DNA from: Thermoanaerobaculia bacterium
GTDB taxonomy: Bacteria; Acidobacteriota; Thermoanaerobaculia; Multivoradales; JAHZIX01
Reading direction: 5' to 3'
Length of the DNA: 44,033 nt
Assembly (NCBI GenBank): GCA_027069135.1
Contig: JALXFE010000440.1
Coordinates: 1 to 44,033, forward strand
Every line of letters starts with the position of its first letter. The first letter of the stretch is position 1. The notes beneath the pieces were generated by a model. That model saw only the letters and a list, made by a program, of their open reading frames with translations, was not told the DNA's origin and searched no databases. The position numbers and the translations under genes are program-made. Positions 11,050-41,000 of the stretch are shown piece by piece.

Positions 11050-11089
11050 CTCGAAACAACCGGCAAGCTTCGCGAGGTGAGTGTTCGAA

Positions 11090-23300: not shown

Positions 23301-26300
23301 TTCTCCTGCGTCGCCTACCGGAATATATGGTCCCCACCCTCTTCTTGCCCATCGAGGGGATCCCCACCACGGCCAACGGCAAATTGGACCGGCAGGCCTT
23401 GCCGGCGCCGGAGCTGGAGCGTCCGGATCTGGGAGAGGCCTACGTCGACCCGGAAGGGGAGATGGAGGAGACCATCGCCGGGATCTGGAGGCGGGTGTTG
23501 CAGGTCGACCGGGTCGGCCGGCAAGATAATTTCTTTACCCTCGGCGGTCACTCCCTTCTCCTGACACAGATCCATGGCGAGTTGAAGGAGAAGCTCTCCG
23601 CGGACCTGTCGTTGGTAGATCTCTTCACCTACCCGACGGTGGGGTCGCTGGCGGAGTTTCTCACCACCAGCCACGATGCCCAGGAGGAAGTCGCGGCCAG
23701 TCTCACTCGGGCGGCGGCTCGCAAGGGGGCCTCGGCCTCCTCCCAGGAGGAAGGTGTAGCGATCATCGGCATGGCTCTGCGCTACCCCCGATCCCGGGAC
23801 GTGGACGAGTTCTGGCACAACCTGCGCAACGGCATCGAGTGCATCGACTTCTTTAGCGAGGAGGAGGTTCTGGCTGCCGGAGTGGACCCGGAGCTGGTCC
23901 AACATCCGGATTACGTGCGGGCGGAAGGCACGGTCTCCGACGTAGACAAATTCGATTGGCGCTTCTTCGGCTACGGCACGCCGGAGGAAGTGGAGCTCGT
24001 CGATCCTCAGCAACGGATTTTCATGGAGATCGCCTGGGAATGCTTCGAGAGGGCCGGCTACAACCCCTTCACGGCCCAGGAGAGCATCGGGGTCTTCGGT
24101 GGGGTGAATATCTCCAGCTACATGTTCAACACCCTCTACGACTACGATCCTTTCAAGGTCATGTCGAGCTTCCTGACCCGCATCGGTCTCCTGGTGGGAA
24201 ATCAGAATGACTACCTCTGCACCCGCCTGGCCTACCACTTCAACCTGCGGGGACCGGCCCTGACGGTGCAGACGGCGTGCTCGACGGCCACCGTGGCCAC
24301 ACACCTGGCGACTCAGAGCCTGCTGCGCAACGAATGCGATCTCTGCCTCGCCGGCGGGGTGCAGATTCGGGTGCCCCAGAACATGGGCTACCTCTACCAG
24401 GAGGGGGGCTTTCCCTCCCCGGACGGCCATTGCCGCTCTTTCGACGCCAAGGCCAAGGGCAATGTCCATGGCAACGGCGCCGGGATCTTGCTTCTCAAGC
24501 GTCTCTCCGAAGCCGTGCGGGACGGGGACCGGATCCACGCCGTGATTCGCGGCACGGCGGTGGCCAACGATGGCAGTGTCAAGGTGGGTTTCACCGCCCC
24601 GGGGGTGAGCGGTCAGGCGAGAGTGGCGGCGGAAGCCATGGCCGTGGCGGGCCTGAGCCCGGAGGATATCGGCTATCTCGAGGCCACCGGCACCGGCACC
24701 GAGTTGGGGGATCCCATCGAGGTGGAGGCCCTCACCAAGGCCTACCGTCTCAGCACCGACAAGGTGGGGTTCTGCCCCATCGGTTCCGTCAAGAGCAATA
24801 TCGGCCACACCGACGCCGCCAGCGGTGCCGCGGCGTTGATCAAGACCGCCCTGGCTCTCGAGAACGAGGAGATTCCTCCCAGTCTGCACTTCGAGGAACC
24901 GAACCCCCGCATCGATTTCGCCTCCAGCCCCTTCGAGGTCAACACCGAGCTCAAGGCCTGGCCTCGCGATGGCAAGACCCGCAGAGCGGCGGTCCATACC
25001 TACGCCGTGGGAGGCACCAACACCCACATCATCTTGGAGGAGGCGCCCCGGGTGCGGGCCTCGAGCCCCAGCCGTCCGTGGCAGCTCCTTCCCCTCTCGG
25101 CCCTCACCTCGACGGCCTTGCATCAGGCGACGGAGAACCTGGCGCAGTACCTGGAAGGCAGCGGCGAGGACCTGGCCGATGTCGCCTTCACCCTGCAGGT
25201 GGGGCGGCGGGATTTATCTCTACGCCGAGCCGTTCTGTGCACCGACCGGGGCGAAGCCGCGACCCTTCTTCGTTCCCTCGAACCCGAGCGGGTCGTGACC
25301 GGGACGGGAGTCCGGGAAGCGCCCACGGTGACGCTCTTTCTCTCCGAGGACGAAGGCCTGAAGGTCTCCGCTTTCGCCGAGATCTACCGTGCCGAGCCCC
25401 TCTTCCGTGACGCCGTGGACGAGATCTCCTCGGATCTGGAGGGCTTCCTCGGCGGATCTCTCAGCGAGAGCCTGCTGGCGAGTGAGGAGGCCTTGGCCGA
25501 GGAGCTCCGGGCACCGATCCACTTCGCGGTGCTCTACGCCCTGGGACGACTCTGGCGCAGCTGGGGGGTTGAGCCCCGGCGCATCGGTGGCAGCGGCGTC
25601 GGTGAGCTGGCGGCGGCCTGCCTCGCTGGCGTTCTGGCACCCTCGGCGGCGGCGCGGTTGGCGGCGGAGGAGGGGAAGATCTTGGCCGCTTCCCCTTTGA
25701 GTCCGTGCCTCGAGGTCCACGGTGATCTGTCGGCGTTGGAGGAGCTTCTTCCGGAAACCCTGCGCATCAGCTCCATCTCGGGGGAGGAGACCTGCACCCT
25801 CATGGGGCCGGAGCCGGAGGTCGAAGCTTTCCGAGACGTTCTCGAAGGGGAGGGATTCGCCGCCTTCATCTTGGGCAAGAAGCGATGTCCGCCCCTCCCC
25901 GGGACTCCGGAGCTGGGGACTTACCGTCTCATCCTCGAGGGATTGGTGAGCGCACCGGCGGAGATCGGTTGGTTGTCCTCGGTGCGGGGTGGGGCCATGA
26001 CCCCGGAGCAAGCTCAGGATCCGTCGTATTGGGAGACCAGGCTCTCGGCGACGGTTCGCACGGCGAAGGTCCTGCGCTCGGTGCTCTCGGACCCCCGTCA
26101 GATCCTTCTGGAGGTCGTTTCGAGCGGCCTCGGGGTCTCGGATCTGTCCGGTTCCGGCGGCGATCTCAGCCGGAGGGTCGCAAGCCTAGGGGATGGCTCG
26201 CGACCGCCCCAAGGCGCCTTGCTCCGAGCCCTGGGGGAGCTCTGGACCGCCGGGGTTGCGGTGGATTGGGCAGGCTTTTCGAGTCGCGAGGAGCGGTGTC

Positions 26301-28273
26301 GGATTCCCTTGCCTACCTATCCCTTCGAGAGGGAGCGGATCTGGGCGGAGCCGGAGATGGACCGCCAAGAGGCCTTCGGGCGACTGGGAGCGCGGGGGGA
26401 GCGAAAGCCCCTGGAGGATTGGTTCTACGCCCCCACCTGGAGCCGCCGGGAGAGCCTTTCGAAGACCCCCGCGGCGCCGGAAGGCGGTGCCGAGACCTGG
26501 TGGGTCTTCGCCGATGCCGGCTCGCCGCCGGCGGCGGCAGCCCACCTGTTGCAGGCCGGGGGTCGCTCCGTCGTGGTGATCGAGGCTGGCGAGGCCTACC
26601 AGGCCCCGGAGAACGGAAGATGCCGTCTGCGGCGGGGTCGGTTCGAGGACTATCAGCGGTTGTTGGAGACCCTGGGCACGGAGTCCCTGGGTTCGGGGAC
26701 CCTGGCAGGGGTCGTCTTCGGCTGGGCGCTACCCGCGGATTCCGGGGCATCGGAGAGTCTCGATACCCGAGGACTCTGGGATCTGGTGTTGTTGGCCCGG
26801 GCTCTCGGATCCCGGCCCCAGGGGCTCACCCTCGACATCGTCACCGCCGGTGGCCAGGAAGTCCTGGGGGATGAAGAGCTCGTCCCCGACCAGGGGGCGA
26901 TTTCGGGTCTCGCCAAGGTCATTCCTCAGGAGTATCCGCAGTTGCGCTGCCGCACCGTCGATCTATCTGTGGAGCTTCTGCGCCGCGGCGACGGCCCTCC
27001 GAAGCAGCGCGCCTTGGAAGCTCTGGTCCGGGAGTGGCTCGAGGAGCCTTCCAGCACCGCGGTGGCCGTGCGCGGGGCGCGCCGGTGGCAACAAGGCTTC
27101 GAGGCTTTGCCGGTGGCTGCCGCCGGAGCTCCGGCTCTACGCCGGGACGCGGTGGTGCTGCTCGCCGGTGGGGTCCACCCCTTCACCTTGATGGTGGGCG
27201 AGGCCCTGGCTTCCCAAGGGCCGGTGCGCCTGGCCTTCCTTGGCGAGTCCGGCCTGCCCCCTCGGGAGGATTGGCCGGCCTGGATCGAATCCGCTGCTGA
27301 GGACGAGACCTGCCGGAATCTGAGGAGCCTCCTGGCCCTCGAAGAGCAGGGAGCTTCGGTGCTGGTGCTGCCGGCGGAGCTTCACCGCCCGGACCAGGCC
27401 GCCGCGGCGGTGGATCAGGTCCTGGAGCTGTGGGGTGCGATTCACGGGGTCCTCTTCACCTCCGGCGAGCTGGCGCCGGAGTACGTGCGGGGGCTGGCGG
27501 AGCTCGACGGGGAGTTTCTGGCCTACCGCATGGGCCAGCGGTTGCGATCGCTCGAAGCCCTGGAGTCGGCCCTGGGGGATCGCCCTCTGGACTTCTTCTG
27601 GCTCTCGTCTACCGTTGCCGCGGTACTGGGCGGTCTGGCCGTCGGCGTCGAAGCGGCAGCGGATTCCTTCCTCGACACTCTGGCCCGCCAGCGTTGTCAG
27701 GAAGGCCGATCCTATTTGAGCATCGGCTGGGATGCCTTCCGGTTCGGCCATGAAGACGCCGAGACCTCAGCTCGATTGCCCCGGGCAGCCCTGACCCCGT
27801 CCGAAAGTGGGGAGGTCGTTCATCGGCTGCTGGCCGCCGGCCTGACCTCCCACGTGGTGATTTCCACCACCGACCTTCCCGCTCGGGTCCGGGGGGCTCT
27901 CGGAAGGGTCTCGGAGGAAGGGACGAGCAGTCTCCGGCAACGACCAGCCGACTTGGCCCAGGAGTATCTGGCGCCGCGCAACGAGGTGGAAGAAGAGGTA
28001 GCCCAGATCTGGTCCGAAGTGCTGGGGATAGATCCCATCGGCGTGGAAGACAACTACTTCGATCTAGGGGGAAACTCCCTTCTCGCCACCCAATTGGTGT
28101 CCCGCCTACGGGGTCGTTTCCAGGTGGAGCTGGCCCTCCAGGGCTTTTTCGAAGGAGCCACGGTCAGCAACGTCGCCCGCAGCATCGACATGGCCCGATG
28201 GGCCGGTGAACAACAGGCCGAGGCTCAGGAGCCTGTCCTGGTTGCCAGTGGTGAAGAAGTCGGCGAGATCTGA
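20342..28273 (+). CDS. Hybrid NRPS-PKS: C-A-PCP followed by a catalytically dead KS-AT-KR-ACP
   Basis: 2643 residues, starting 6 nt after the PKS. Residues 1-35 form a charged N-terminal docking helix. C domain 45-486: HHIISD intact (H181, H182, D186), but HHxxxDG has T for G. A domain 513-1030: TSGSTG at 674; specificity positions read D-L-F-D-F-S-L-V-W-K, nearest to cysteine-type codes such as DLYNLSLIWK. PCP: S1071. The PKS part looks inactive. KS 1138-1570 keeps C1313 and H1489, but EAHGTGT is EATGTGT (T1449 replaces His). AT 1660-2000 reads GGSGVGE with Gly at the catalytic Ser position (1752) and has no HAFH. KR 2023-2520 lacks the glycine-rich motif and the catalytic Tyr/Asn. ACP keeps S2579. 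The tail ends in EEVGEI, like a ligand for TubC_N docking domains. It probably adds one amino acid to the polyketide chain and passes it on. Confidence 0.92.
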   Translation: MDRPPAKNLENLSDRQRRLLELLLKEKGSADGGKESRTAITARSGSGPAPLSFAQQRLWFIDQLQPGTAAYNIPSGVRLKGPLNAGLFGQALKRTVARHETLRSTFELREGQPVQPVAARATAVLPLLDLRALPRGDRDTEAQKVVDGLARRPMSLASSPPWRALLVRVEESDHVFMTVMHHIISDTWTTGVFFREMVGHYKALLEGGEAKVPDLPVQYGDYSTWQRKALEGGSLSGQLDYWIRQFQDAPPLLSLPTDRPRPAVQTFRGGRINLVLPNTLTDRLKELSAQQEATFFMTLMAGYQILLYRYTHEPDLLVGTPMANRDRVELENLIGLFVNTLVLRTGFHGRPTFRQLLDQVRATTLEGLSNHDVPFERVVEELTLERDTSRNPLFQVLFAFQNVPIPELVAEGLTLERYEFRETTARLEVELDLQEMPYGFVGWLGYNADLFDEATVERMARNFRVLLEGIAENPDRAVGQLPLLSENERREVTAEWNQTTAPYDKEATLHGLFEAQARQRPEALAVVCGARNLTYGELEARANRLANLLLKAGVGPTTPVGIYLRRGLDSVVSVLAVLKAGGNYIPLDLAFPVARMKTIVESAGARHLLTQSSLYEDLEDLRPCLEHVVLLDASWEGESAEGLRIWSPEELEAQSPTAPPILVPAEAWAYTIFTSGSTGVPKGVMVQHRPVSNLIEWVAQTFDFGPRDQVLFITSLSFDLSIFDVFGLLAVGGSIRVATDEEKRDPAALLSILEAEPITFWDSAPAALQQLAPLFEAGAVADAALRLAFLSGDWIPVGLPGEVVKAFPGSRVISLGGATEATVWSNFFPVRELPEHWVSIPYGRPIRNARYYVLGDGLDPEPVNASGDLFIAGECLSFGYLASPALTAWKFVPDPFSQSGGRLYRTGDRARFWKDGNLEFLGRLDHQVKIRGYRIELGEIAAALTEHEDLRDAVVLVREDTPGDRRLVAYVVASEGEAPGFAELRAFLLRRLPEYMVPTLFLPIEGIPTTANGKLDRQALPAPELERPDLGEAYVDPEGEMEETIAGIWRRVLQVDRVGRQDNFFTLGGHSLLLTQIHGELKEKLSADLSLVDLFTYPTVGSLAEFLTTSHDAQEEVAASLTRAAARKGASASSQEEGVAIIGMALRYPRSRDVDEFWHNLRNGIECIDFFSEEEVLAAGVDPELVQHPDYVRAEGTVSDVDKFDWRFFGYGTPEEVELVDPQQRIFMEIAWECFERAGYNPFTAQESIGVFGGVNISSYMFNTLYDYDPFKVMSSFLTRIGLLVGNQNDYLCTRLAYHFNLRGPALTVQTACSTATVATHLATQSLLRNECDLCLAGGVQIRVPQNMGYLYQEGGFPSPDGHCRSFDAKAKGNVHGNGAGILLLKRLSEAVRDGDRIHAVIRGTAVANDGSVKVGFTAPGVSGQARVAAEAMAVAGLSPEDIGYLEATGTGTELGDPIEVEALTKAYRLSTDKVGFCPIGSVKSNIGHTDAASGAAALIKTALALENEEIPPSLHFEEPNPRIDFASSPFEVNTELKAWPRDGKTRRAAVHTYAVGGTNTHIILEEAPRVRASSPSRPWQLLPLSALTSTALHQATENLAQYLEGSGEDLADVAFTLQVGRRDLSLRRAVLCTDRGEAATLLRSLEPERVVTGTGVREAPTVTLFLSEDEGLKVSAFAEIYRAEPLFRDAVDEISSDLEGFLGGSLSESLLASEEALAEELRAPIHFAVLYALGRLWRSWGVEPRRIGGSGVGELAAACLAGVLAPSAAARLAAEEGKILAASPLSPCLEVHGDLSALEELLPETLRISSISGEETCTLMGPEPEVEAFRDVLEGEGFAAFILGKKRCPPLPGTPELGTYRLILEGLVSAPAEIGWLSSVRGGAMTPEQAQDPSYWETRLSATVRTAKVLRSVLSDPRQILLEVVSSGLGVSDLSGSGGDLSRRVASLGDGSRPPQGALLRALGELWTAGVAVDWAGFSSREERCRIPLPTYPFERERIWAEPEMDRQEAFGRLGARGERKPLEDWFYAPTWSRRESLSKTPAAPEGGAETWWVFADAGSPPAAAAHLLQAGGRSVVVIEAGEAYQAPENGRCRLRRGRFEDYQRLLETLGTESLGSGTLAGVVFGWALPADSGASESLDTRGLWDLVLLARALGSRPQGLTLDIVTAGGQEVLGDEELVPDQGAISGLAKVIPQEYPQLRCRTVDLSVELLRRGDGPPKQRALEALVREWLEEPSSTAVAVRGARRWQQGFEALPVAAAGAPALRRDAVVLLAGGVHPFTLMVGEALASQGPVRLAFLGESGLPPREDWPAWIESAAEDETCRNLRSLLALEEQGASVLVLPAELHRPDQAAAAVDQVLELWGAIHGVLFTSGELAPEYVRGLAELDGEFLAYRMGQRLRSLEALESALGDRPLDFFWLSSTVAAVLGGLAVGVEAAADSFLDTLARQRCQEGRSYLSIGWDAFRFGHEDAETSARLPRAALTPSESGEVVHRLLAAGLTSHVVISTTDLPARVRGALGRVSEEGTSSLRQRPADLAQEYLAPRNEVEEEVAQIWSEVLGIDPIGVEDNYFDLGGNSLLATQLVSRLRGRFQVELALQGFFEGATVSNVARSIDMARWAGEQQAEAQEPVLVASGEEVGEI

Positions 28274-28286
28274 GGGCTCGAGAGAT

Positions 28287-30410
28287 ATGGCGAGCAGAAC
28301 GTTACAAGTCGCCGAGTTGGTGAGCTTTGTGCGAGACCGGGCGGTGGAGCTCCAGGTGAAGGGGGAGTGCCTGACCTTTCGAGGAGCCATGGGAGACCTG
28401 CCGCCCCAGGTGCGCCGGGATCTGGTCGAGCGGAAAGGCGAGATCCTGCGTTTCCTCGCTGCGCCTCCGGACGGCGGAGCCTCGAATCCTCTGGCTCCGC
28501 TTCTGCAACCCTTGAGGATCGGATCTCTCGAAATCTCGAACCGACTGGTGCTCTCTCCCATGGAAGTGGACCTCGGCGAGGTGGACGGCAGGGTCTCTCC
28601 CCGGGTGGTGGATTATTACGCCGCCCGAGCCCGGGGCGGCGTCGGTCTGGTCATCGTCGAGGCGACCTGCGTCGACGCGCCGGTGGGACGCCTCGCCCCG
28701 ACGCAGCTGGTAGCCGATCATGATGGAGCGATTCCGGGTCTTCAGCGGCTGGCACGGGCTATTCAGCGGGGAGGGGCCCGGGCGGCGCTACAACTACAAC
28801 ATGCCGGGCGCAAGACCAGCGCTGCGCTCACCGGTGTGCGACCGGTAGCACCGTCGCCGGTACCCAATCATCTGGGAGAGACGCCCCGGGAGCTCGAGCC
28901 GGAGGAGATTCATGCTCTGGCCCGGCGGTTTGGAGATGCTGCCGCCCGTGCCCAGATGGCGGGCTTCGATGCGGTGGAGATTCACGCCGGTCACGGCTAC
29001 CTTCAGGCGCAATTCCTTTCCCCTACCTACAACCAGCGTTCCGACGAGTACGGCGGAAGCGCGAAAAACCGTGGACGGTTCCTGTTGGAAACCGTCCGGG
29101 AAGTGCGGCGCCGGGTGGGGCGAGGCTTTCCCGTCCTCTGTCGCCTGAGCGCCTTGGAGCTGGAGGTCGAAGGGGGATTGCGGCCCCTCGCCGGAGGGTT
29201 GTCTTTCGAGGAAACCCGACGCCTCGCTCCTCTTCTCGAAGCTGCCGGTGTGGCCGCCATCGACCTCTCCGCGACCCTGGTGGGACCGGCCTTGCTCCAT
29301 CCCATGGCCTGGCCGGAGGCTGCCTTGGCGGAATACGGTCGAGGGCTCAAGGAGACGGTGTCGATCCCCGTCAGCCTCACGTCTCGGATCCCCGTGGCCT
29401 GGGCGGCGGAGCAGATCGCTGCCGGCGCCTTGGACATGGTGCGCCTGGGCCGGCCCCTGTTGGCGGATCCGGAGCTACCCCGGAAGCTGAGATCGCCGGC
29501 GGTTGGAGAGATCCGGCCCTGCATCTACTGCTCCGAATGTCTGGACGGACCTCGCCGGGAGCCGGCTGCAGTATGCGCTGTCAACCCGCGTCTGGGCCGG
29601 GAAGGGGAGGCGGAGACCGACGCCATCGAGGCTCGCACGGTGGTGGTTGCCGGGGGCGGGCCGGCGGGGATGGAAGCCGCTTGCGCCGCCGCTCGCCGGG
29701 GGCATCGGGTCCACCTCTTCGAGCGGGGAGAGGAGCTTGGAGGACAGCTCCTTCTCTCTTCCAAGCCGGACTCCGCCGCCATCACCTACGGTGCCTTCCT
29801 GCGCTTTCTTCAGGCCGAGGTCGAACGCTCGGAGGTACGAGTTCACCTGGGAGAAGAGCTCGGACCGGAGGCTTTGGAGGCCTTGGGGGCTCAGGTCTTG
29901 GTCCTCGCCACGGGAGCCAAAGCCATCTCGACCCTCCCTGCCGGAGCCGATGGAGCGATCACCGCCATCGATGTCCTCAAAGGGGCACCGACGGGGGAGC
30001 GGGTGGCGGTCGTCGGCGGCGGATTGGTCGGTTGCGAGACGGCCCTGAAGCTGGCGGCCCGGGGCCACCAGGTGACCTTGATGCACCGCGGCGCGGGCCT
30101 CGCCGAGAGGGTTCCGGCGGAGGTGCGCACATGGCTTCTATGGGCCTTGGAACAAGAGGGCCTGGAGCTTCGCCGCCGATGCGAGGCCCGGCAGGAAAGC
30201 GCCGGTGAGCTCATCTTGCTCCAGGACGGACGAGAGGTCGCGGAGCGATTCGACACGGTGGTCCTGGCCGTGGGGGCTGAGCCGGATCTCGGGCCCTGGC
30301 AGGAGTTTTCCGGTGAGGGCCTGGAGATTGTGGTGTTGGGGGATTGCCGAAAGCCCCGGGACCTGCGCCACGCGGTTCATGACGGGTATTGGTCGGCACA
30401 GGATTTCTGA
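28287..30410 (+). CDS. TubC_N docking domain fused to Old-Yellow-Enzyme / dienoyl-CoA reductase-like flavoenzyme
   Basis: 707 residues, 13 nt after the hybrid gene. Residues 5-56 are a TubC_N-type NRPS docking domain (VAELVSFVRD... LQVKGECLTFRGAMGDLPPQVRRDLVERKGEILRFL). Residues ~68-400 are an FMN-binding TIM barrel of the Old Yellow Enzyme family, with QHAGRKTS, EIHAGHGYLQAQFLSP and DEYGGSAKNR motifs. C412, C415, C418 and C430 can hold a [4Fe-4S] cluster. From ~449 to the end are the two Rossmann segments (VAGGGPAGMEA and VVGGGLVGCE) of NAD(P)H:flavin reductases such as FadH. It should pass electrons from NAD(P)H via FAD, Fe-S and FMN to reduce an activated C=C or similar bond. The docking domain implies an assembly-line-bound substrate. 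Spacing CxxCxxC is one residue shorter than in FadH. ATG 28287 is used; an earlier in-frame start would overlap the upstream gene. Confidence 0.9.
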   Translation: MASRTLQVAELVSFVRDRAVELQVKGECLTFRGAMGDLPPQVRRDLVERKGEILRFLAAPPDGGASNPLAPLLQPLRIGSLEISNRLVLSPMEVDLGEVDGRVSPRVVDYYAARARGGVGLVIVEATCVDAPVGRLAPTQLVADHDGAIPGLQRLARAIQRGGARAALQLQHAGRKTSAALTGVRPVAPSPVPNHLGETPRELEPEEIHALARRFGDAAARAQMAGFDAVEIHAGHGYLQAQFLSPTYNQRSDEYGGSAKNRGRFLLETVREVRRRVGRGFPVLCRLSALELEVEGGLRPLAGGLSFEETRRLAPLLEAAGVAAIDLSATLVGPALLHPMAWPEAALAEYGRGLKETVSIPVSLTSRIPVAWAAEQIAAGALDMVRLGRPLLADPELPRKLRSPAVGEIRPCIYCSECLDGPRREPAAVCAVNPRLGREGEAETDAIEARTVVVAGGGPAGMEAACAAARRGHRVHLFERGEELGGQLLLSSKPDSAAITYGAFLRFLQAEVERSEVRVHLGEELGPEALEALGAQVLVLATGAKAISTLPAGADGAITAIDVLKGAPTGERVAVVGGGLVGCETALKLAARGHQVTLMHRGAGLAERVPAEVRTWLLWALEQEGLELRRRCEARQESAGELILLQDGREVAERFDTVVLAVGAEPDLGPWQEFSGEGLEIVVLGDCRKPRDLRHAVHDGYWSAQDF

Positions 30411-30476: not shown

Positions 30477-33400
30477 ATGAACGTTTCCGTGATGCAGCAG
30501 CGGGCCGACGCCCGCGGTCTCTCGATCCCGGCTTTGGAGCGGCTCCTGGAACAGTGGGGTCTGGGGGGAGCTCGGTGGACCCTGGTGGGGGATGGGGTCA
30601 ACAAGACGCTGGAGGTGAAGCCCTCTTCCCCGGCCTTCGGTGGCGAGGATCGACTGGCGTTGCGCCTCTATTCGGGAGCCCAATACGACCCTCTGACGAT
30701 CCGATCCGAGCTCTCGTGGCTCGAATCCCTCAAGGGGGCGGGTCTGCGGGTGCCGGTGGGGCTCCCCGGACGGGATGGGACCTCCATCGTGGCGGCTCGG
30801 GAGGTCGTGGGCGAGGTCGGCAGCTCGGCGGTGCTCTTCAGCTGGTTGGAGGGGAGCCCCGTTCCGGAGCCCCTGTCTCCAGCTACCGCCCGAAGGCTGG
30901 GAGAGTTCATGGCGAGGCTCCACCGCCATTCGCAGACCTTTGCGGCGGGGCTCGACTTCAAACGACCCCGCTACGGCTTAGAACGCCTCCTAGGAGACGG
31001 AAAATCCGCCGGTGGGAAGGGTGCCGTGCCCTTCTGGACCGACGAGGTCAGGGCTTTGGCCCGAAGGGCCGGGGAGGTTCTTCGGCAGGAGTTGGGAAGA
31101 TTACGACAGGAGCCCGGCGAGGCCGCCTCCGGTGGTTGGGGTTTGATTCATGGAGACCTGCAGATCACCAACTTTCTCCTCCAGGAGGGAGAGCTCGGGG
31201 CCATAGATTTTGCCGATTTCGGTTGGGGCTTTTTCCTCTACGACGTGGCGGCATCCCTGCTGCCGGTGCGGCATAGCTCGGAGTTTCCAGCCCTGCGGGA
31301 CGCCTTCCTTCGAGGCTACACCGGGGTCCGGCCGCTGATGCCCTCCGCCAAGGATCTCTTGGAGCCGTTCTTCGCTGCCCGGGCCCTCTTCATTCTGCGC
31401 TGGACCGGGGAGTTCTGGCACCTGCCTTCGGTGCGCGAGACGGCGAAGACGACCTTGCCCTTTCTCAAAGGGGAGCTCCGGCGATTCCTCGGCGAAGACG
31501 CTCCCGGAGCCCCGGGAGGGGATGGGGTCGTCGAGCTCTTGAGCCGGCTCCGAGCTTCGGGGATCAAGCTTTGGGAAGAGGAAGGCCGGCTGCGCTTCAA
31601 AGCTCCTGAAGGGACGATGACTTCGCAGCTCCGGCAACGGCTGGCCGAGAAGAAGGGACAGCTTCTCCTCTTCCTCGTGCGGCACCGACAGGCCGGCCAG
31701 AAGACCCAGGAACCGGCGTTGGAGCCCCTCCCCCGGCGGAAGCATATGCCGCTGTCTTTCGCCCAGGAACGCCTGTGGATCCTTCATCGACTGGAGCCGG
31801 AGAGCCCGGCCTACAACATTTCCCAGGGGATTCGCCTCGAGGGGAGGTTGGTCCCCTCCGCGCTGCGCAAGACTCTGCAGGAGATCGTGCGACGCCACGA
31901 GATCCTGCGGACCTCCTTCGGCCTTTCGGATGCGGACGAACCGGCCCAGATCATCGCTCCTGCCTTGGAGCTCGAGATCCCCACCGTCGACTTTCGGGGC
32001 CTCGCCGCGGGGGCCGGTGCGGGGAAGGTAGAGGCCCTGACCTCCCGGCTGGCCAACCAACTGGCTTCAATGCCCTTCGACCTCAGCCGGATCCCTCTGC
32101 TGCGTTTCGTTCTCCTTCGCACCGGCGAAGCCCGGCACCTCCTGTTGCTCAGTCTGCACCACATCATTTCCGATGGCTGGTCCAGCGGCATCCTGATGCG
32201 GGAGATGGCGACCCTCTATGGAGATTTCCTGAACGGCGCAGAGCCGTCCTTGGGGGAGTTGGGGCTGCAATACGCGGATTTCAGCGGCTGGCAGCGGCGC
32301 TGGCTTCAAGGGGAGGTGCTAGAGGGGCAGCTGGAGTATTGGCGTCAACATCTGGCGGGGGCCCCGGGTCTCCTGGAGCTTCCCGCGGACCGCCCCCGGC
32401 CGCCGGTCCAGAGTTTTCGTGGTGGCCGCCGGGAGGTGGCGTTGGATGGGCAGCTTTCATCCCGCCTCAAGAGCCTGGGGCAGCAGAGCGGGGCGACTCT
32501 CTTCATGAGCCTGGTAGCGATCTATGGAGCCCTCCTCTTTCGCTACTCCGGCCAGCGGGATCTGCTCCTGGGCTATCCCATCGCCAACCGCAACCGGGTG
32601 GAGATCGAGCCCCTCATGGGGTTCTTCGTCAACACTCTGGTGCTGCGGGCTCGGTTCTCCCCGGGGCAGACCTACAGAGAGCTCCAGGAGCAGATGCGGC
32701 GGATCACCGTCGATGCCTACAACCATCAGGACCTGCCCTTCGAACGGCTGGTGGAAGAGCTCCACCCGGAGCGGGACGTGAGCCACACGCCCCTGTTCCA
32801 GGTCATGTTCACCCTCCAGAACGCCCCCCTGCCGAAGCTCGCGATGCCGGGGCTGGAGCTCGGGTTCGTCCGGCCGGAAAAGGCCGCCGTGCAGCTGGAC
32901 CTGGACATGACCCTGCGGGATGGGGAGGACGGTCTCCGGGGTGTGTTGGCCTACAGCCTGGATCTCTTCGACCCGACCACCGCCGAACGCTTGACAGAGC
33001 ATTTCGCGGCCCTGGCAGCAGCGGCGATGGCGCAGCCGGACCTTGCCCTGGAGCGCCTCTCCCTGCTGCCCCCGGCCCAGCAGCATCAATTGCTCCTGGA
33101 GTGGAACGACACCGCAACGAGCTACCCTCTCCAGCGTTCCTTCCCGGAGCTCTTCGGGCGGTCCGTCGAAGAATTCTCGGAGCGGATAGCGGTGCGCTGC
33201 GGGGACGAGGTCTGGACCTACGGCGAGCTCGGGGCCCGATGCGCCGGGCTGGCTGCTCGGTTCCGGGAGAAAGGCCTGATCCCCGGCGGGGTGGTCGCCG
33301 TGTTGGCCCACCGAGGGCCGGATCTCCTGGCCGCCATAGTGGCCGTCCTCCAGGCCGGGGGTGCCTACCTGCCCCTCGATCCCCTCCACCCATCGCGGCG

Positions 33401-34985
33401 TCTGGCAGCCACTCTGGAACGCAGCGGGGCAGATCTGTTGGTGGTGGAGCCGGGAACCGAGGGCCTTTGGGCGCCGATCCTGGAAGCGCTGGACGATGAC
33501 GCGGGGCCGACCCTCGTCGAGTTGAACCCCGTGGCCCAGGGGGCGTCGGCGCCGCCGGTGCCGATTCACCCGGAGGGTCTGGCCTATGTCATCTTCACCT
33601 CCGGCTCTACCGGCGTTCCCAAAGGAGCTATGGTCCATCAGGGCGGCCTGGTCAACCACCTCCTGTTGATGATCGACAGGCTGGACCTGGGCCCGGAGGA
33701 CGCACTCGCCCAGACCGCCTGCCAATGCTTCGATATTTCCGTCTGGCAATTCTTGACGCCGCTTCTGGTCGGCGGGCGGGTGGAGATTCTGCCGGACGCC
33801 GTGGCCCACGACCCCCTCTCCCTGGTCCGGGCGGTGGAGGAGCGGCGGATCACCCTGCTCCAGACCGTGCCGTCCATGCTGGGCCAGATGCTTCAGCTCC
33901 TCGAGGATGAGGGCGGGGCGGCGCTGCGGGGCCTTCGCTGGATGATTCCTACCGGGGAGGCCCTACCGGTCTCCCTCTGGCAGCGTTGGCACGAAGCCTT
34001 TCCGAAAATTCCCTTGCTCAACGCCTACGGCCCCGCCGAATGCTCCGACGACGTCACCCTGGAGCGCCTCCACGGGGCGCCGGTTTCGACGGCGGTTCCC
34101 ATCGGCCGGCCGGTGGCGAACCTCCAAACCCTCGTGGTCAACGAAGACTTCTCTTTCGCTCCCCCGGGAGTCCCCGGCGAAATCGCCATCGGTGGCGTCG
34201 GGGTGGGTTGGGGATATTTGGGAGATCCCGGCCGCACGGCGGAGGTCTTCGTTCCCAACCCTCATTCGGCAGCGCCGGGGGAACGCCTCTATCTCACCCG
34301 GGACCTGGGCCGTTGGAGCGGCGAGGGGGTGCTGGAGTTTACCGGCCGGCGGGATTATCAGGTCAAGATCCGGGGTTTCCGCATCGAGCTCGGCGAGGTG
34401 GAGGCGGCCCTCGAGACCCACGAGCTCATCGGGCAGGCAGTGGCCGTCGCGGAGGCCTCCGAGGAGGGAGCGGAGCAGTTCCTGGCGGCTTATCTGGAGT
34501 GCTCCCGGGGGGGCGTTCCGGACGTCGAATCCCTCCGCGCCCACGTCAAGACTTGCCTGCCTCGGTATATGGTGCCGTCCCTCTTCATCCTGCTGGACGA
34601 GTTGCCCCGCAACGCCAACGGCAAGGTGGACCGTCAGGCCCTCGGCAAGGCCGGAGGCACCGTTCTCGAGTTGGCCACCGCCTACGAACCTCCGGCCACG
34701 CCGTCGGAGACCGAGATGGAGGAGATCTGGAAAGAGCTCCTGGATCGGGATCGGGTCGGAGTCCACGACAGCTTCTTCGATCTGGGGGGGAACTCCCTCA
34801 TGGCCACCCAGCTCCTGGCCCGGGTACGGCAACGATTTGCCGTGGAGCTGCCGCTGGCGGTGCTCTTCGAGACGCCGACGGTGCGGGCTCTGGCGAGGGC
34901 CATCGACGTCGTCTCCGGGGCCGAGGCGGCCCGCCTCCGGCGTGGGTCCGATGGGACCGAAGACCGGGAAGAAGGGGAGCTCTGA
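30477..34985 (+). CDS. Kinase-NRPS fusion: APH-like phosphotransferase-TubC_N-C-A-PCP
   Basis: 1502 residues. Residues ~15-335 resemble the aminoglycoside phosphotransferase / homoserine kinase II fold: catalytic loop HGDLQITN (H225, D227, N232) and Mg-binding D244 in IDFADFGWG. TubC_N lies internally at 349-402. C domain ~424-865 has HHIISDG (H561, H562). A domain ~890-1390 has TSGSTG at 1041, and specificity positions read approximately D-I-W-Q-I-T-A-D-D-K, which I cannot assign. PCP has S1440. The tail ends in EEGEL, a likely ligand for the next protein's TubC_N domain. It adds one amino acid; the kinase may phosphorylate a hydroxyl of the bound chain, of the product, or of a precursor. 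The start ATG has GGAGGAG about 9 nt upstream; the frame is open a little further (TTG 30414), but that part is not protein-like. Confidence 0.9.
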   Translation: MNVSVMQQRADARGLSIPALERLLEQWGLGGARWTLVGDGVNKTLEVKPSSPAFGGEDRLALRLYSGAQYDPLTIRSELSWLESLKGAGLRVPVGLPGRDGTSIVAAREVVGEVGSSAVLFSWLEGSPVPEPLSPATARRLGEFMARLHRHSQTFAAGLDFKRPRYGLERLLGDGKSAGGKGAVPFWTDEVRALARRAGEVLRQELGRLRQEPGEAASGGWGLIHGDLQITNFLLQEGELGAIDFADFGWGFFLYDVAASLLPVRHSSEFPALRDAFLRGYTGVRPLMPSAKDLLEPFFAARALFILRWTGEFWHLPSVRETAKTTLPFLKGELRRFLGEDAPGAPGGDGVVELLSRLRASGIKLWEEEGRLRFKAPEGTMTSQLRQRLAEKKGQLLLFLVRHRQAGQKTQEPALEPLPRRKHMPLSFAQERLWILHRLEPESPAYNISQGIRLEGRLVPSALRKTLQEIVRRHEILRTSFGLSDADEPAQIIAPALELEIPTVDFRGLAAGAGAGKVEALTSRLANQLASMPFDLSRIPLLRFVLLRTGEARHLLLLSLHHIISDGWSSGILMREMATLYGDFLNGAEPSLGELGLQYADFSGWQRRWLQGEVLEGQLEYWRQHLAGAPGLLELPADRPRPPVQSFRGGRREVALDGQLSSRLKSLGQQSGATLFMSLVAIYGALLFRYSGQRDLLLGYPIANRNRVEIEPLMGFFVNTLVLRARFSPGQTYRELQEQMRRITVDAYNHQDLPFERLVEELHPERDVSHTPLFQVMFTLQNAPLPKLAMPGLELGFVRPEKAAVQLDLDMTLRDGEDGLRGVLAYSLDLFDPTTAERLTEHFAALAAAAMAQPDLALERLSLLPPAQQHQLLLEWNDTATSYPLQRSFPELFGRSVEEFSERIAVRCGDEVWTYGELGARCAGLAARFREKGLIPGGVVAVLAHRGPDLLAAIVAVLQAGGAYLPLDPLHPSRRLAATLERSGADLLVVEPGTEGLWAPILEALDDDAGPTLVELNPVAQGASAPPVPIHPEGLAYVIFTSGSTGVPKGAMVHQGGLVNHLLLMIDRLDLGPEDALAQTACQCFDISVWQFLTPLLVGGRVEILPDAVAHDPLSLVRAVEERRITLLQTVPSMLGQMLQLLEDEGGAALRGLRWMIPTGEALPVSLWQRWHEAFPKIPLLNAYGPAECSDDVTLERLHGAPVSTAVPIGRPVANLQTLVVNEDFSFAPPGVPGEIAIGGVGVGWGYLGDPGRTAEVFVPNPHSAAPGERLYLTRDLGRWSGEGVLEFTGRRDYQVKIRGFRIELGEVEAALETHELIGQAVAVAEASEEGAEQFLAAYLECSRGGVPDVESLRAHVKTCLPRYMVPSLFILLDELPRNANGKVDRQALGKAGGTVLELATAYEPPATPSETEMEEIWKELLDRDRVGVHDSFFDLGGNSLMATQLLARVRQRFAVELPLAVLFETPTVRALARAIDVVSGAEAARLRRGSDGTEDREEGEL

Positions 34986-35017
34986 GGCATGGCGAGAAAC
35001 CTCATGGAGTGTGCGCC

Positions 35018-38000
35018 TTGAGCGATAGCAATGCCACTCTCGTGCCTCCGGCCCCGCCGGAGCTGCTCGTCGAGGTGGGCGAGGAAGAGACCACGGTGGA
35101 GTTCCTTGCCCGTCTCCAGGCCCGCGATATCGATCTTTGGGCCGAGGGCGAGAAATTGCGGTTCAACGCGCCCAAGGGCGCGCTGACGCCGGCTCTGCGG
35201 GAAGAAATCCTACGCCGGAAGCCCTCCCTCCTGAGTTTCTTGCAGCAGGTAGCGGATTCCGGCAAGGCACCGCCGCCACCGATCCCCCGGCGGGATCTTT
35301 CGACTCCCCACCGTCTCTCCTTCGCTCAGGAACGGCTGTGGTTCTTCTCCCAATGGGAGTCGGAGAGTGCAGCCTACAACCTCTCTCCCGCCTTCCTGCT
35401 TCGGGGCGAGCTGCGGATTTCTGACCTGGCGAGAGCTCTGGCCGGAGTCGTCGAACGCCATGCCGTCTTGCGGACCCGCTATTCGGAGGCTGACGGGGAG
35501 CCCCGACAGCACGTGGAGAGCAACGTGGCGTTGCCCCTGCCGCTGGTCGATCTCTCCTCCCTGGCGCAGGCCGAGGTGCGAGATCTCGGGCAGAGGCTCT
35601 TGGATCGTGGATCTCAGAAGGCCTTCGACCTGCGCCAGGCTCCGCCGCTGCGGGTACTGCTGCTTCGCCGTGGGCCCCGAGAGCATGTGTTGCTCATCGT
35701 CGTTCATCACATCGCCTTCGATGGCTGGTCCAGCGCGGTGATGATGAGGGAAGTCGTCGAGGCCTACCAGGCCTTGGGCCAGGGGCGCGCGGTACACCTG
35801 TCGGCACCGCCAATTCAATACGCGGAATTCGCCCACTGGCAGCGGGAGTGGCTCGAGAGCGGTGTCTTGGAGGATCAGCTGGCCTTCTGGACGAGCCACC
35901 TCGAAGGGGCCCCCCAGGTTCTGCAGATGCCGACGGACCGTCCCCGGTCCCGGGAGGGATCGGCTGCTGGTGGCCGCGTGGAAGGATGGGTGCCGGGCTC
36001 CTTGTGGAAGGAGATCCAGGGCCGCTGCCAGCGATGGGATGTGACTCCCTTCATGTTCCTCAGCTCTGTATTCGGCTACGTCCTCTCCCTTTGGTGCGGG
36101 CAGAGGGATTTGCTCTTCGGCTCTCCCATCGGTACCCGCAATCGGGTCGAGTTGGAAGGCTTGATCGGTTTCTTCGTCAATACTCTGGTATTTCGGACAC
36201 TCATCCGCCGGGACGACACCGTCGAAGATCTCCTGCGGCGAAGCCGGCAAGGAACTCTCGAGGCCCTGGCGCACCAGGATCTACCCTTCGAACGGCTGGT
36301 GGATGAGCTCCAGCCCACCCGGGACCTTCAACTGACCCCTCTCTTTCAGGTCATGTTTGCCTTTGAGAATGTCGGTGGCGGGATGATCGCTACCGAAGGC
36401 CTGGAGGTCGAGGCCGTCCCTACCCATAGCGGCGCGGTGGCCTTCGACCTGAGCACGGTGATGCGCGAGGAGGGAGATCGGCTCTTCCTGGGACTGCGGT
36501 TCCGCAAGGCCCTCTTCGATACCACCACCATGGAGCGCCTGCACCGGCGCTTGCGGGGTTTTCTCCAGGAGTTTCTGGGGAATCCGAAACGGCGGCTCTC
36601 CCAGTTGCCGACGATGAGTACCACTGAACGCCACCAGCTTTTGTGGGAGTGGAGCGATACGGCGCGTCTCTATCCACCGAGGACCGTCCCCGGACAGATC
36701 CTCAAGGCAGCGGCGGAGATTCCGGAAGCACCGGCGGTGACCCTCGACGGAGGAGAGACCTTACGCTACGGCGAGTTGATGGCCTGGGCCAGCACCCTCA
36801 GTCTGGAGCTCCTCCGAGGGGGCGTTCGCCCGGGCAGCCCCGTGGCGGTATGCCTGGATCGCTCCCTGGAACAAGTCGTGGCGCTCTTGGCGGTGCATCT
36901 GGCGGGCGCTGCCTACCTCCCCCTGGATCCCTCCTACCCGGCCTTGCGGTTGCGGTATCTCCTCGAGGACGCTCTGGGTGGCGAACCCGGAGCCGTTCTG
37001 CTGGCGGGGCCCGAGGGGGCACCGGCGGAGCTCGAAGCCTGCTGCCACGACCTGGCGATCACCGTGCTCTCCGTGGCATCGGAGGGACGAGACGGGGATG
37101 CCGTGGGCTTCGTCGCGGACGAACCGGATCCTCAAAGCCCGGCCTACCTGCTCTACACCTCCGGCTCCACGGGTCGTCCCAAGGGGGTGGTGATCTCTCA
37201 CGGGGCCCTCGCCAATCACATGAGCTGGATGGGGGAGATCCTGGGGATCGGAGCCTCCGACGTGGTGCTGCAGAAGACCCCCATGAGCTTCGACGCTTCG
37301 GTCTGGGAGTATTGGGCGCCGCTCCTGGCCGGCGGGCGCCTGGTGGTCGCAGAGCCGGACGGTCATCGGGATCCCCGGTACCTGCTGGAGGTCATCCGCC
37401 GCCATGGGGTGACCGTGCTCCAGGCGGTGCCCTCCCTGTGGCAGGCCCTGGTAGAAGAAGACGGGTGGAGTGAGGGTGATTCTCTGCGCCTCATCTGCAG
37501 TGGTGGCGAGCCCTTGTCGCCCCGTCTGGCGGAAGATCTGCAGGCTCGTAGCGGCGTACGGGTGGTGAACCTCTACGGCCCCACAGAGGCGACCATCGAT
37601 GCCACCTGGTGGGAGGTCCCTGGGGAAGGCCCCGGCACTGTCGTACCGGTGGGGAGGCCGGTCGCCAACCTTCTCGCTCGGATTCTGGATGGGGCCGGGC
37701 GACCGGTGGCCCTGGGATCGGCGGGGGAGCTCTCCCTTTCCGGAATGGGCTTGGCCCAGGGCTACCACCGGCGTCCGGGGTTGACGGCCTCGGTCTTCGT
37801 ACCGGATCCCCATGGCCAACGCCCCGGGGAGCGGCGCTACCGTACCGGGGACCGGGCCCGTTGGCGACGGGATGGTCTATTGGAAGTGTTGGGGCGTTTC
37901 GACCAGCAGGTCAAGGTGCGGGGATTCCGCATTGAAGTCGGCGAGGTGGAATCGGCCTTGGGAGCTGTCGCCGGAATCAAGGAGAGGGCCGTGGTCGTCC

Positions 38001-41000
38001 GGGAGGATGGCGGCTCCCCGCAGCTGGTGGCTTACGTGACGGCAAGCCCCGAGCTCGAAAAGGCGCCGGAAGCGGTCCAAGAGCACCTTCGCCGGGAGCT
38101 GCGCCGGAGCCTTCCGGAGCATATGGTTCCCGCCACCTTCCTGGTGCTCGAATCCCTTCCCCTGACCCCCAACGGGAAGGTGGACCGACGGGCCCTACCG
38201 GCACCACCGGCAGCTGGCGGCCAGGGCGATGCGGGGCGACCGCCGCGGACCGTCGAGGAGGAGCTCCTGGCGGGGATCTGGCAAGAGGTCCTCGCCGTGG
38301 AGTCGGTAGATCTGTCCACCTCCTTCTTCGATCTCGGAGGTCATTCCCTGCTGGCGACCCAGGTGGTGTCCCGAGTCCGGCAGGCGCTGGGGGGAGACGT
38401 GGGCCTGCGCTCCTTCTTTGAGTTCCCGACCATCGAAGGTTTCGCTGGGGTCCTCCGGAAGAATCGCCAGGGGCTCTCGTCCCCAGCTCCCGCACTGGAG
38501 AAACGGCCGGCGGGCGTCCCGCTTCCCCTGAGCTTCGCCCAGCAGCGTCTTTGGTTCCTGGACCAGCTCGATGGCGAGGGCGATGTCTACAACATGCCTC
38601 TGGGCCTGCATCTCAGGGGGGCATTGCAGCCGGCATCCCTGGCGAAGGCGGTCTTCCGGGTGGTCCATCGGCATGAGGTGTTGCGGACAGTCTTCCGGCC
38701 GGGAATCGACGGCCCTCGTCAGCTCGTGGGCCTGCCCGGGCCGGCGGCGAAGCTCAGCCTCCTCGACCTTTCCGGCCTCTCCGCCGATCTGCGGGAACAC
38801 GAAGCCCAGGTCCTGGCTCGCCGGGAGGCCAAGTCCCCCTTCGACCTCTCGACCGGACCCCTGCTGCGAGCCCGAGTATTGCGGCTGACCCGAGAGCACC
38901 ACCTCTTCCTTCTCACCCTCCACCACATCGTGGCGGATGGTTGGTCCTTGGGAATTCTGGTGCGGGATTTCACGGCTGCCTATGCGGCGGAGCTGGCCGG
39001 GGAAGGCCGGGCGCTACCGCCTCTCGAAGTCGAGTACGGGGACTTCGCCCTGTGGCAGCGGGAGTGGTTCCAGGGCGAGGTTCTGGAACGGGAGGTGGAG
39101 TTCTGGCACCGGCAATTGGACGGGGCTCCGCCTCGCCTCGAGCTGCCCACGGATCGCCCGCGGCCGCCGGTGCTGACCTACGACGGTGCCACCCTTGGGC
39201 TGGAGCTCCCGGCCCGGCCGGTGCAGAAGCTGGTGGAGATAGGTCGCCGGCGGGGAGCCACTCGCTTCATGGCTCTGGCGGCCATTTTCGTCGGTTGGCT
39301 GGCAAAGATTTCCGGCCGGCTGGATCTTGTCATCGGCACCCCCATCGCCGGGAGGGACCAGAGACAGACGGAGGATCTCATCGGCTTCTTCGTCAACACC
39401 TTGGCCCTTCGCTTCGAGCTTCCCGGGGCTCCGAGCTTCTTGACCCTCCTCGAAGGGGTGCGGGAGCGGGCCCTGGGAGCCTATGAGCACCAGCATCTCC
39501 CCTTTGAACGGCTGGTGGAGGAGCTGGCACCGACCCGGGATCCGGGCTCCCATCCGATTTTTCAGGTGATGTTCTCCCTGCAGAATGCTCCGCAATTGTC
39601 CGCCGAGATTCCGGACCTCGACCTCGAGCCCCTGGCTCTGGGAGGGACGACGGCGAAGTTTGACCTTACCCTGAACCTCTCCGAATCCCCCGAGGGCTTT
39701 CAAGGATCCCTCGAATACAGGACCGACCTCTTCGACGAGACCACGATTCTGCGGTGGCGGGGGCAGCTCCTGCGGGCGGTGGAGGAAGCCACGGCGGATC
39801 CCGCTCGATCGGTTTCTTCCTGGTCCCTGTGGTCTCCCGGAGAACGTCACCAGGTCCTGGCCGAGTGGAACGATTCGGCGCGCAGCTATGACTCCGGGGG
39901 CCGTCGGAGCGTACCCGGGCGAATCCTGGACCGCGCCACCCGGGCGCCGGAGGATCCGGCGGTCATCCTCGATGGCGGCGGAACCCTCTCGTATGGCGAG
40001 CTCGCCTCCTGGGCCAGCGCCGTGGCTCGGGAGCTGCAAACGGCGGGGGTCGGCCCGGGCCGGCTGGTGGCTGTCTGCCTGGAAAGGTCCCTGGAGCAGG
40101 TCGTCGCCCTGCTGGCGGTGCATCTGGCCGGCGGGGCCTACCTGCCGCTGGATCCCGACTATCCCCTGGAGCGGCTGACCTACCTGCTGGAGGATGCCTC
40201 GAGGGGAGAACCTGTCCGCGTGCTGTTGGTGGCATCGGGGAGAGAGCCAGGGCAGCTCGAGGAGCGCGCCGCCCCTCTGGGGGTCGCGGTCATGGCGGTC
40301 CCGGGCCGGCGAGAAGGGGATCTGCCCGGTGGCGCCGGCATCGGTTTCACCTTCCAGGAACCGGATCCCGAGAGCCCCGCCTACCTGCTCTACACCTCCG
40401 GTTCCACGGGCCTTCCCAAGGGGGTGGTGATCTCCCACGGGGCTCTGGCCAATCACCAGAGCTGGACCGCCGAAGCCCTGAAGGTCAGCTCGTCGGACGT
40501 GGTGCTGCAGCACACCTCCATTAGCTTCGACGCCTCGGTTCCCGAGGTTTGGGCTGCCCTCCTGGCGGGGGGGCGATCGGTGCTGGCCCAGCCCGGCGGC
40601 CACAGGGATCCTCAATACCTGGGAGAGTTGATCGAGAGCCAAGGGGTCACCCTGGTTCAGGCCGTCCCCTCTCTTCTGCAGGCCTTGGTGGAGGAGGGTT
40701 GTCTGGAACGTCGTCCCTCCCTGCGTCTGCTTTGCAGCGGAGGCGAGGCCTTGTCGCCGGGTCTGGCGGCGGCTCTGCAGGCCCACACCGGAGCCCGGGT
40801 GATGAATCTCTACGGCCCGACGGAGGCCACCGTCGATGCCACTTGGTGGACCGTTCCCGACAAGGGCCCGGGGCCGGTGGTTCCGGTGGGCCGGCCGGTG
40901 GCGAATCTCAGCGCCCAGGTCCTGGACACGGCGGGACGGCCGGTGCCTTTGGGAGCGGTGGGGGAGCTCTTTCTCGCTGGCACCGGTCTGGCCCAGGGCT

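Follow-up and report, generated by a model that had tools for sequence, protein, structure and literature searches.

The 44,033-nucleotide stretch of DNA analyzed here (the window) encodes a kinase that is covalently joined, through a TubC_N docking domain, to an NRPS module. We consider that this kinase is probably a tailoring domain at a subunit junction, where it would phosphorylate the carrier-bound chain on the assembly line. Underlying this reading are the architecture of the protein, its catalytic residues, and the conservation of the junction, together with the predicted fold of the kinase.

The kinase-NRPS gene (30477-34985, + strand) starts with an ATG at 30477, with the ribosome-binding site AGAGGAGGAG shortly before it, and encodes 1502 aa in one uninterrupted frame that runs from the kinase through TubC_N to C-A-PCP, with no internal stop between any of these parts. 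Codon-position GC does not change its coding pattern at the kinase/TubC_N/C junction. Pfam places APH (PF01636) at residues 58-287 (77.7 bits versus a cut-off of 23.2), TubC_N (PF18563) at 351-400 (61.6 bits versus a cut-off of 26), Condensation at 421-873, AMP-binding at 895-1248, AMP-binding_C at 1307-1383, and PP-binding at 1416-1476. The first-pass annotation of this DNA had described a kinase with HGDLQITN and IDFADFG motifs in front of a buried TubC_N domain, and had raised a hidden stop between the two as a possible flaw; the motifs and the internal position of TubC_N are confirmed, and the frame is free of such a stop.

30519-31490, + strand: APH-fold kinase domain, residues about 15-338 (PF01636; fold matches 6ef6, 6sui, and 2ppq)
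31149-31172, + strand: catalytic loop HGDLQITN, kinase residues 225-232
31203-31223, + strand: IDFADFG, kinase residues 243-249
31527-31676, + strand: internal TubC_N, a β-hairpin docking domain (PF18563, 61.6 bits; predicted structure)
31737-34904, + strand: C-A-PCP module with A-domain code DIWQITADDK (Pfam and code reading)
34968-34982, + strand: C-terminal docking motif EEGEL (sequence)

The internal TubC_N is predicted to adopt an α-β-β-α-α arrangement and matches chains of AerJ, TubC, and EpoB in a PDB search. Judged by published codes, the A-domain code DIWQITADDK is probably Dab-like; all A-domain codes were read using a GrsA fragment and a code table.

We compared the locus with genomes G002 and G003, of the same family as the window genome (G000), G044, of the same order, and G234, of another family; several of the compared genomes are fragmented MAGs. 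Two subunits, P1 and P2, are encoded upstream of the kinase-NRPS gene, and the second ends in a PKS module that appears unable to elongate a chain.

11081-20335, + strand: P1, a PKS with KS-AT-KR-ACP followed by KS-AT-(KR remnant)-ACP (Pfam)
20342-28273, + strand: P2, with C-A-PCP, then a degenerate PKS module, and a docking peptide at its C-terminus (Pfam and alignment)
23750-28180, + strand: non-elongating module KS0-AT0-KR0-ACP of P2 (alignment with intact modules and with the G002, G003, and G234 orthologues)
24272-24289, + strand: KS Cys, retained in the dead module
24680-24700, + strand: KS0, reading EATGTGT versus EAHGTGT (His to Thr)
25583-25609, + strand: Ser site of AT0, with Gly in place of the catalytic Ser; the AT His is also gone
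27158-27184 and 27605-27658, + strand: KR0, with NADPH motif and Tyr lost
28064-28081, + strand: ACP Ser, retained in the dead module
28250-28270, + strand: GEEVGEI, a short linear docking motif at the C-terminus of P2 (sequence; orthologues have similar tails)

In P1 module 2, the KR has neither the NADPH motif nor YxxxN. In P2 and its counterparts, the KS reads EATGTGT, EATGTAT, or EASGTGT with TACSTA retained, the mark of a KS0, in the window genome, G002, G003, and G234. The degeneration is common to G002 and the contig-covered part of G003, and in G234, where the KS reads EASGTGT, the AT is deleted entirely. Conservation of the dead module in four genomes suggests that it is kept for a role other than chain extension. 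Just upstream of the gene for a P2-like protein whose dead module has no AT (L082, G234:C1056) lies a class III aminotransferase-like gene. Elsewhere in the window, we noticed a trypsin-like protease fused with a DNA/RNA non-specific endonuclease (8711-10570, + strand) and a haem-oxygenase-like iron-containing redox enzyme (1522-2211, - strand) with a thiolase and a DAO-type oxidoreductase nearby.

The genes on either side of the kinase-NRPS gene also encode proteins with TubC_N domains.

28287-30410, + strand: TubC_N joined to a 2,4-dienoyl-CoA reductase/BaiCD/OYE-type flavoenzyme (Pfam, NCBIfam, and PDB search)
28308-28457, + strand: TubC_N of the OYE-type protein
29520-29576, + strand: CxxCxxC..C iron-sulfur motif of the OYE-type protein
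34982-44033, + strand: P5, TubC_N-C-A-PCP-C-A-PCP-C-A..., continuing past the window end; start codon provisional
35096-35248, + strand: TubC_N of P5

The flavoenzyme combines Oxidored_FMN, Pyr_redox, and [4Fe-4S] cysteines, as in the 2,4-dienoyl-CoA reductase/OYE family; its docking domain has diverged, with a low score of 34 bits. The TubC_N-OYE fusion also occurs in G002. In G234, which likewise encodes a docking-linked kinase, an OYE without a docking domain adjoins the PKS end. Among further TubC_N proteins of G044, G018, G002, and G022 examined for a docking-linked OYE, those inspected by eye are NRPSs. The order dead module, TubC_N-OYE, APH-TubC_N-NRPS, TubC_N-NRPS is kept on one G002 contig, and in G003 the matching genes and order are split over two contigs. 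The first-pass annotation had recognized the fusion but missed the TubC_N-ene-reductase neighbor and the conserved dead PKS module, both of which alter the picture of the locus. We also noticed that the strand opposite the G002 cluster encodes a LanM-type enzyme (DUF4135 and LANC_like; L037:142-3834, + strand) at the cluster's 3' end, and that, downstream of the cluster on G044 contig C233, MacB-type and MFS transporters flank an acylase of the penicillin-amidase family (L039:2948-5476, + strand), which could act in prodrug deacylation.

Acidic docking-type motifs are found at the C-termini of upstream proteins (GEEVGEI, EEMGEI, DDLEEGEF, and WEEIEI), so that a predicted short linear motif, the expected partner of TubC_N, is present at the end of the upstream subunit. 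β-Hairpin docking domains bind short charged C-terminal tails, and one tail can recruit several partners (PMC9113145). In the hand-over model that we infer, the docking pairing, the substrate, and the timing would be as follows. The upstream subunit would park its chain on the ACP of the dead, non-elongating module, and the P2 tail GEEVGEI would act as a docking peptide that binds TubC_N domains. The ene-reductase would be recruited through its own TubC_N and act in trans. The TubC_N of the kinase-NRPS would dock too, bringing the kinase and the next C domain to the same ACP; since one tail can recruit several partners, the P2 tail may bring both proteins to the one parked chain in turn, the reductase first and the kinase-NRPS second. 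Using ATP, the kinase would then phosphorylate a hydroxyl on the ACP-bound chain, either before the chain moves to the C domain or during that transfer.

Because a short linker ties the kinase to the domain that would hold the tail, the carrier-bound chain is the likeliest substrate. Phosphorylation of the growing peptide accordingly appears to be the best supported of the options offered by the first-pass annotation, as the kinase is located at the docking interface, where the upstream chain would arrive. The acceptor in the window is predicted to be the free hydroxyl produced by the KR in module 1 of P1. On G044 contig C713, the residue added just before the kinase protein is specified by the exact Thr code, DFWNIGMVHK; on C233, the residue at this point has a Val-like code, which means that no single, universal acceptor fits all cases. 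The OYE step is not general either, since the G044 clusters contain the kinase and, in the available sequence, neither a dead module nor an OYE.

As for its purpose, the phosphate could serve either as a leaving group or for self-protection; sequence alone is compatible with both. Built-in self-protection, in which a lasting phosphate added during assembly would keep the product inactive until a phosphatase acts, as with AmiN (amicoumacin) and ComG (corramycin), is possible, if doubtful. AmiN is the second-best match of the kinase by both fold and profile. In the amicoumacin precedent, AmiN is reported to be a self-resistance kinase and AmiO an activating phosphatase (PMC7235827), and ComG, which confers resistance, phosphorylates a hydroxyl of PKS origin in a hybrid peptide (PMC10996006). 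The self-resistance kinases known so far are, however, separate proteins acting on the free product. In addition, no phosphatase, such as an AmiO counterpart, was found among the 3' genes scanned in the flanks of the G002 and G044 C233 clusters, which weakly disfavors self-protection; generic phosphatases could substitute, and the sequence of the window cluster stops at 44033, inside P5.

In amino-alcohol metabolism, kinase/class III aminotransferase-fold pairs use the phosphate as a leaving group, and the nearest solved relative, 6ef6, and the stand-alone relatives found next to class III aminotransferases belong to such routes. The OYE neighbor in the window, G002, and G003 fits such a role, as a β-phosphoryloxy ketone that loses its phosphate becomes an enone, a typical OYE-family substrate. 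A tentative and rather improbable extension is that the dead module is kept only for its ACP and docking peptide and forms a tailoring station, at which the kinase and the ene-reductase would replace the missing DH/ER by phosphate chemistry: a hydroxyl would be phosphorylated, the phosphate would leave, and the resulting alkene would be reduced. For the window, and more speculatively, a β-hydroxy-ketone, expected because PKS module 1 reduces and module 2 does not, would be phosphorylated and lose its phosphate to give an enone for reduction by the OYE-type enzyme. No phospho-lyase gene was found in the kinase-fusion clusters.

A different target, the amino acid of the kinase's own module, seems unlikely. 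The kinase is covalently linked to that module and could in principle supply a phosphorylated precursor, an option raised by the first-pass annotation, for loading by the following A domain. However, the own-module A code varies among relatives (Dab-like, an unassigned code, Leu) although the kinase is conserved; the downstream codes read DIWQITADDK versus DIFHFGLILK versus DAWFLGNVVK. The kinase of G234, moreover, has a docking domain but no module. Both points disfavor a precursor-supplying role and leave phosphorylation of the upstream, carrier-bound chain as our preferred reading.

Foldseek matches of the kinase include 6ef6, 6sui, 2ppq, and 1nd4. The best are 6ef6, whose title names it a microcompartment-associated aminopropanol kinase, the amicoumacin kinase AmiN, and 2ppq, a homoserine kinase. 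The earlier "APH/homoserine-kinase-like" label calls for a minor correction, as the subfamily lies nearer to aminopropanol kinase (6ef6); membership in homoserine kinase (ThrB type II) was rejected because the NCBIfam equivalog cut-offs were missed (45.8 versus 271 and 29.8 versus 255.9 bits). Close stand-alone relatives of the kinase adjoin class III aminotransferases, whose closest models are PRK06148/06149; proteins of this type are long, and the stand-alone kinase also matches their N-terminal part.

The docking-linked kinases differ from these relatives at a diagnostic position after the catalytic region: DFAD is present in all six docking-linked kinases, versus DFDD in all seven stand-alone relatives examined. 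This split indicates that the docking-linked kinases are a putative specialized subfamily. Our guess is that the second Asp of DFDD could anchor small substrates by their free amine, a group absent from a peptidyl chain. The same substitution, seen in every docking-linked member, together with an N-lobe Arg in place of Lys, could instead point to a degenerate, non-catalytic fold that serves only for docking or scaffolding. We regard this as very unlikely: HxDxxxxN and the Mg-binding DFG-type Asp are invariant across the kinase relatives, so that the catalytic His, Asp, and Asn, whose loss had been raised as a possible objection, are all in place, and the N-lobe Arg is shared with 6ef6, deposited as a kinase, and with all stand-alone relatives examined.

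The kinase-TubC_N-NRPS fusion also occurs in G003, in G002, and twice in G044, with 33-44% identity to the window copy. A kinase fused to a docking domain is therefore present in five NRPS proteins from four genomes and in a sixth protein without NRPS, that of G234 (contig JANQFM010000604), which consists of kinase and TubC_N only (400 aa, ending at a stop codon of its own, without an NRPS downstream). The window genome assembly comprises 626 contigs, but we give almost no credence to an assembly or sequencing artefact that fused two separate genes, and reject it, given four homologous fusions in three further Acidobacteriota genomes, separately named isolates among them.

A profile search (E 1e-70) found the fusion in 4 of 149 genomes of the class; among 396 evenly drawn genomes of the phylum, only the window genome and G234 had matches that covered TubC_N. 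A whole-collection scan of GTDB genome contigs detected the fusion only in Acidobacteriota MAGs; its peptide patterns were strict, however, and DFAD formed part of one of them. Plasmid records contained only stand-alone kinase relatives, none covering 80% of the kinase plus TubC_N query. Searches of the open-licence literature gave no report of a kinase joined to a docking domain of an NRPS, which does not in itself prove that there is none. The kinase-linked C domains do not form a single clade in a C-domain tree of modest support. Overall, the fusion of kinase, docking domain, and NRPS looks real, conserved, and rare, in keeping with the earlier claims of a true fusion and of the rarity of a built-in phosphotransferase. 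TubC_N-type domains were also seen in prophage-like DNA, at L055:9007-9645 (- strand) and G000:C432:5682-5825 (- strand) in the window genome; the one on C177 adjoins a DUF3631 protein, and no neighboring NRPS was seen.

Kinases in natural-product clusters have so far been known as separate resistance enzymes. If phosphorylation occurs at the junction as we propose, it would be an assembly-line step at a defined position, which would help account for the conservation of the dead PKS module. The kinase and docking domain, once found alone, would then constitute a portable tailoring unit for pathway engineering.

The window kinase belongs to the same APH subfamily as aminopropanol kinase 6ef6 and the kinases of kinase-phospho-lyase pairs, by sequence, profile, and fold, and shares their catalytic motifs. 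Enzymes of the 6ef6 type are stand-alone, carry DFDD, and are expected to act on free amino alcohols, whereas the window kinase is fused and carries DFAD. Kinase/class III aminotransferase pairs have an aminotransferase neighbor, whereas no class III aminotransferase-fold gene (PF00202) was seen among the scanned window proteins. AmiN, ComG, and the capreomycin kinase Cph are likewise APH-fold kinases from NRPS/PKS clusters with peptide-type products, but they are separate enzymes that act on finished products and have no docking or NRPS fusion. In the hybrid PKS-NRPS cluster of FK228, the dehydrogenase and phosphotransferase DepF/DepG are discrete enzymes acting in trans. The window junction, with TubC_N and an acidic C-terminal peptide, resembles the SLiM/β-hairpin docking pairs of NRPS and PKS-NRPS lines. 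The attachments listed for TubC_N place it in front of C, E, Cy, TE, MT, thioester reductase, or halogenase domains, on their N-terminal side (PMC9113145); in the window, by contrast, one TubC_N lies behind a kinase and another is carried by an ene-reductase.
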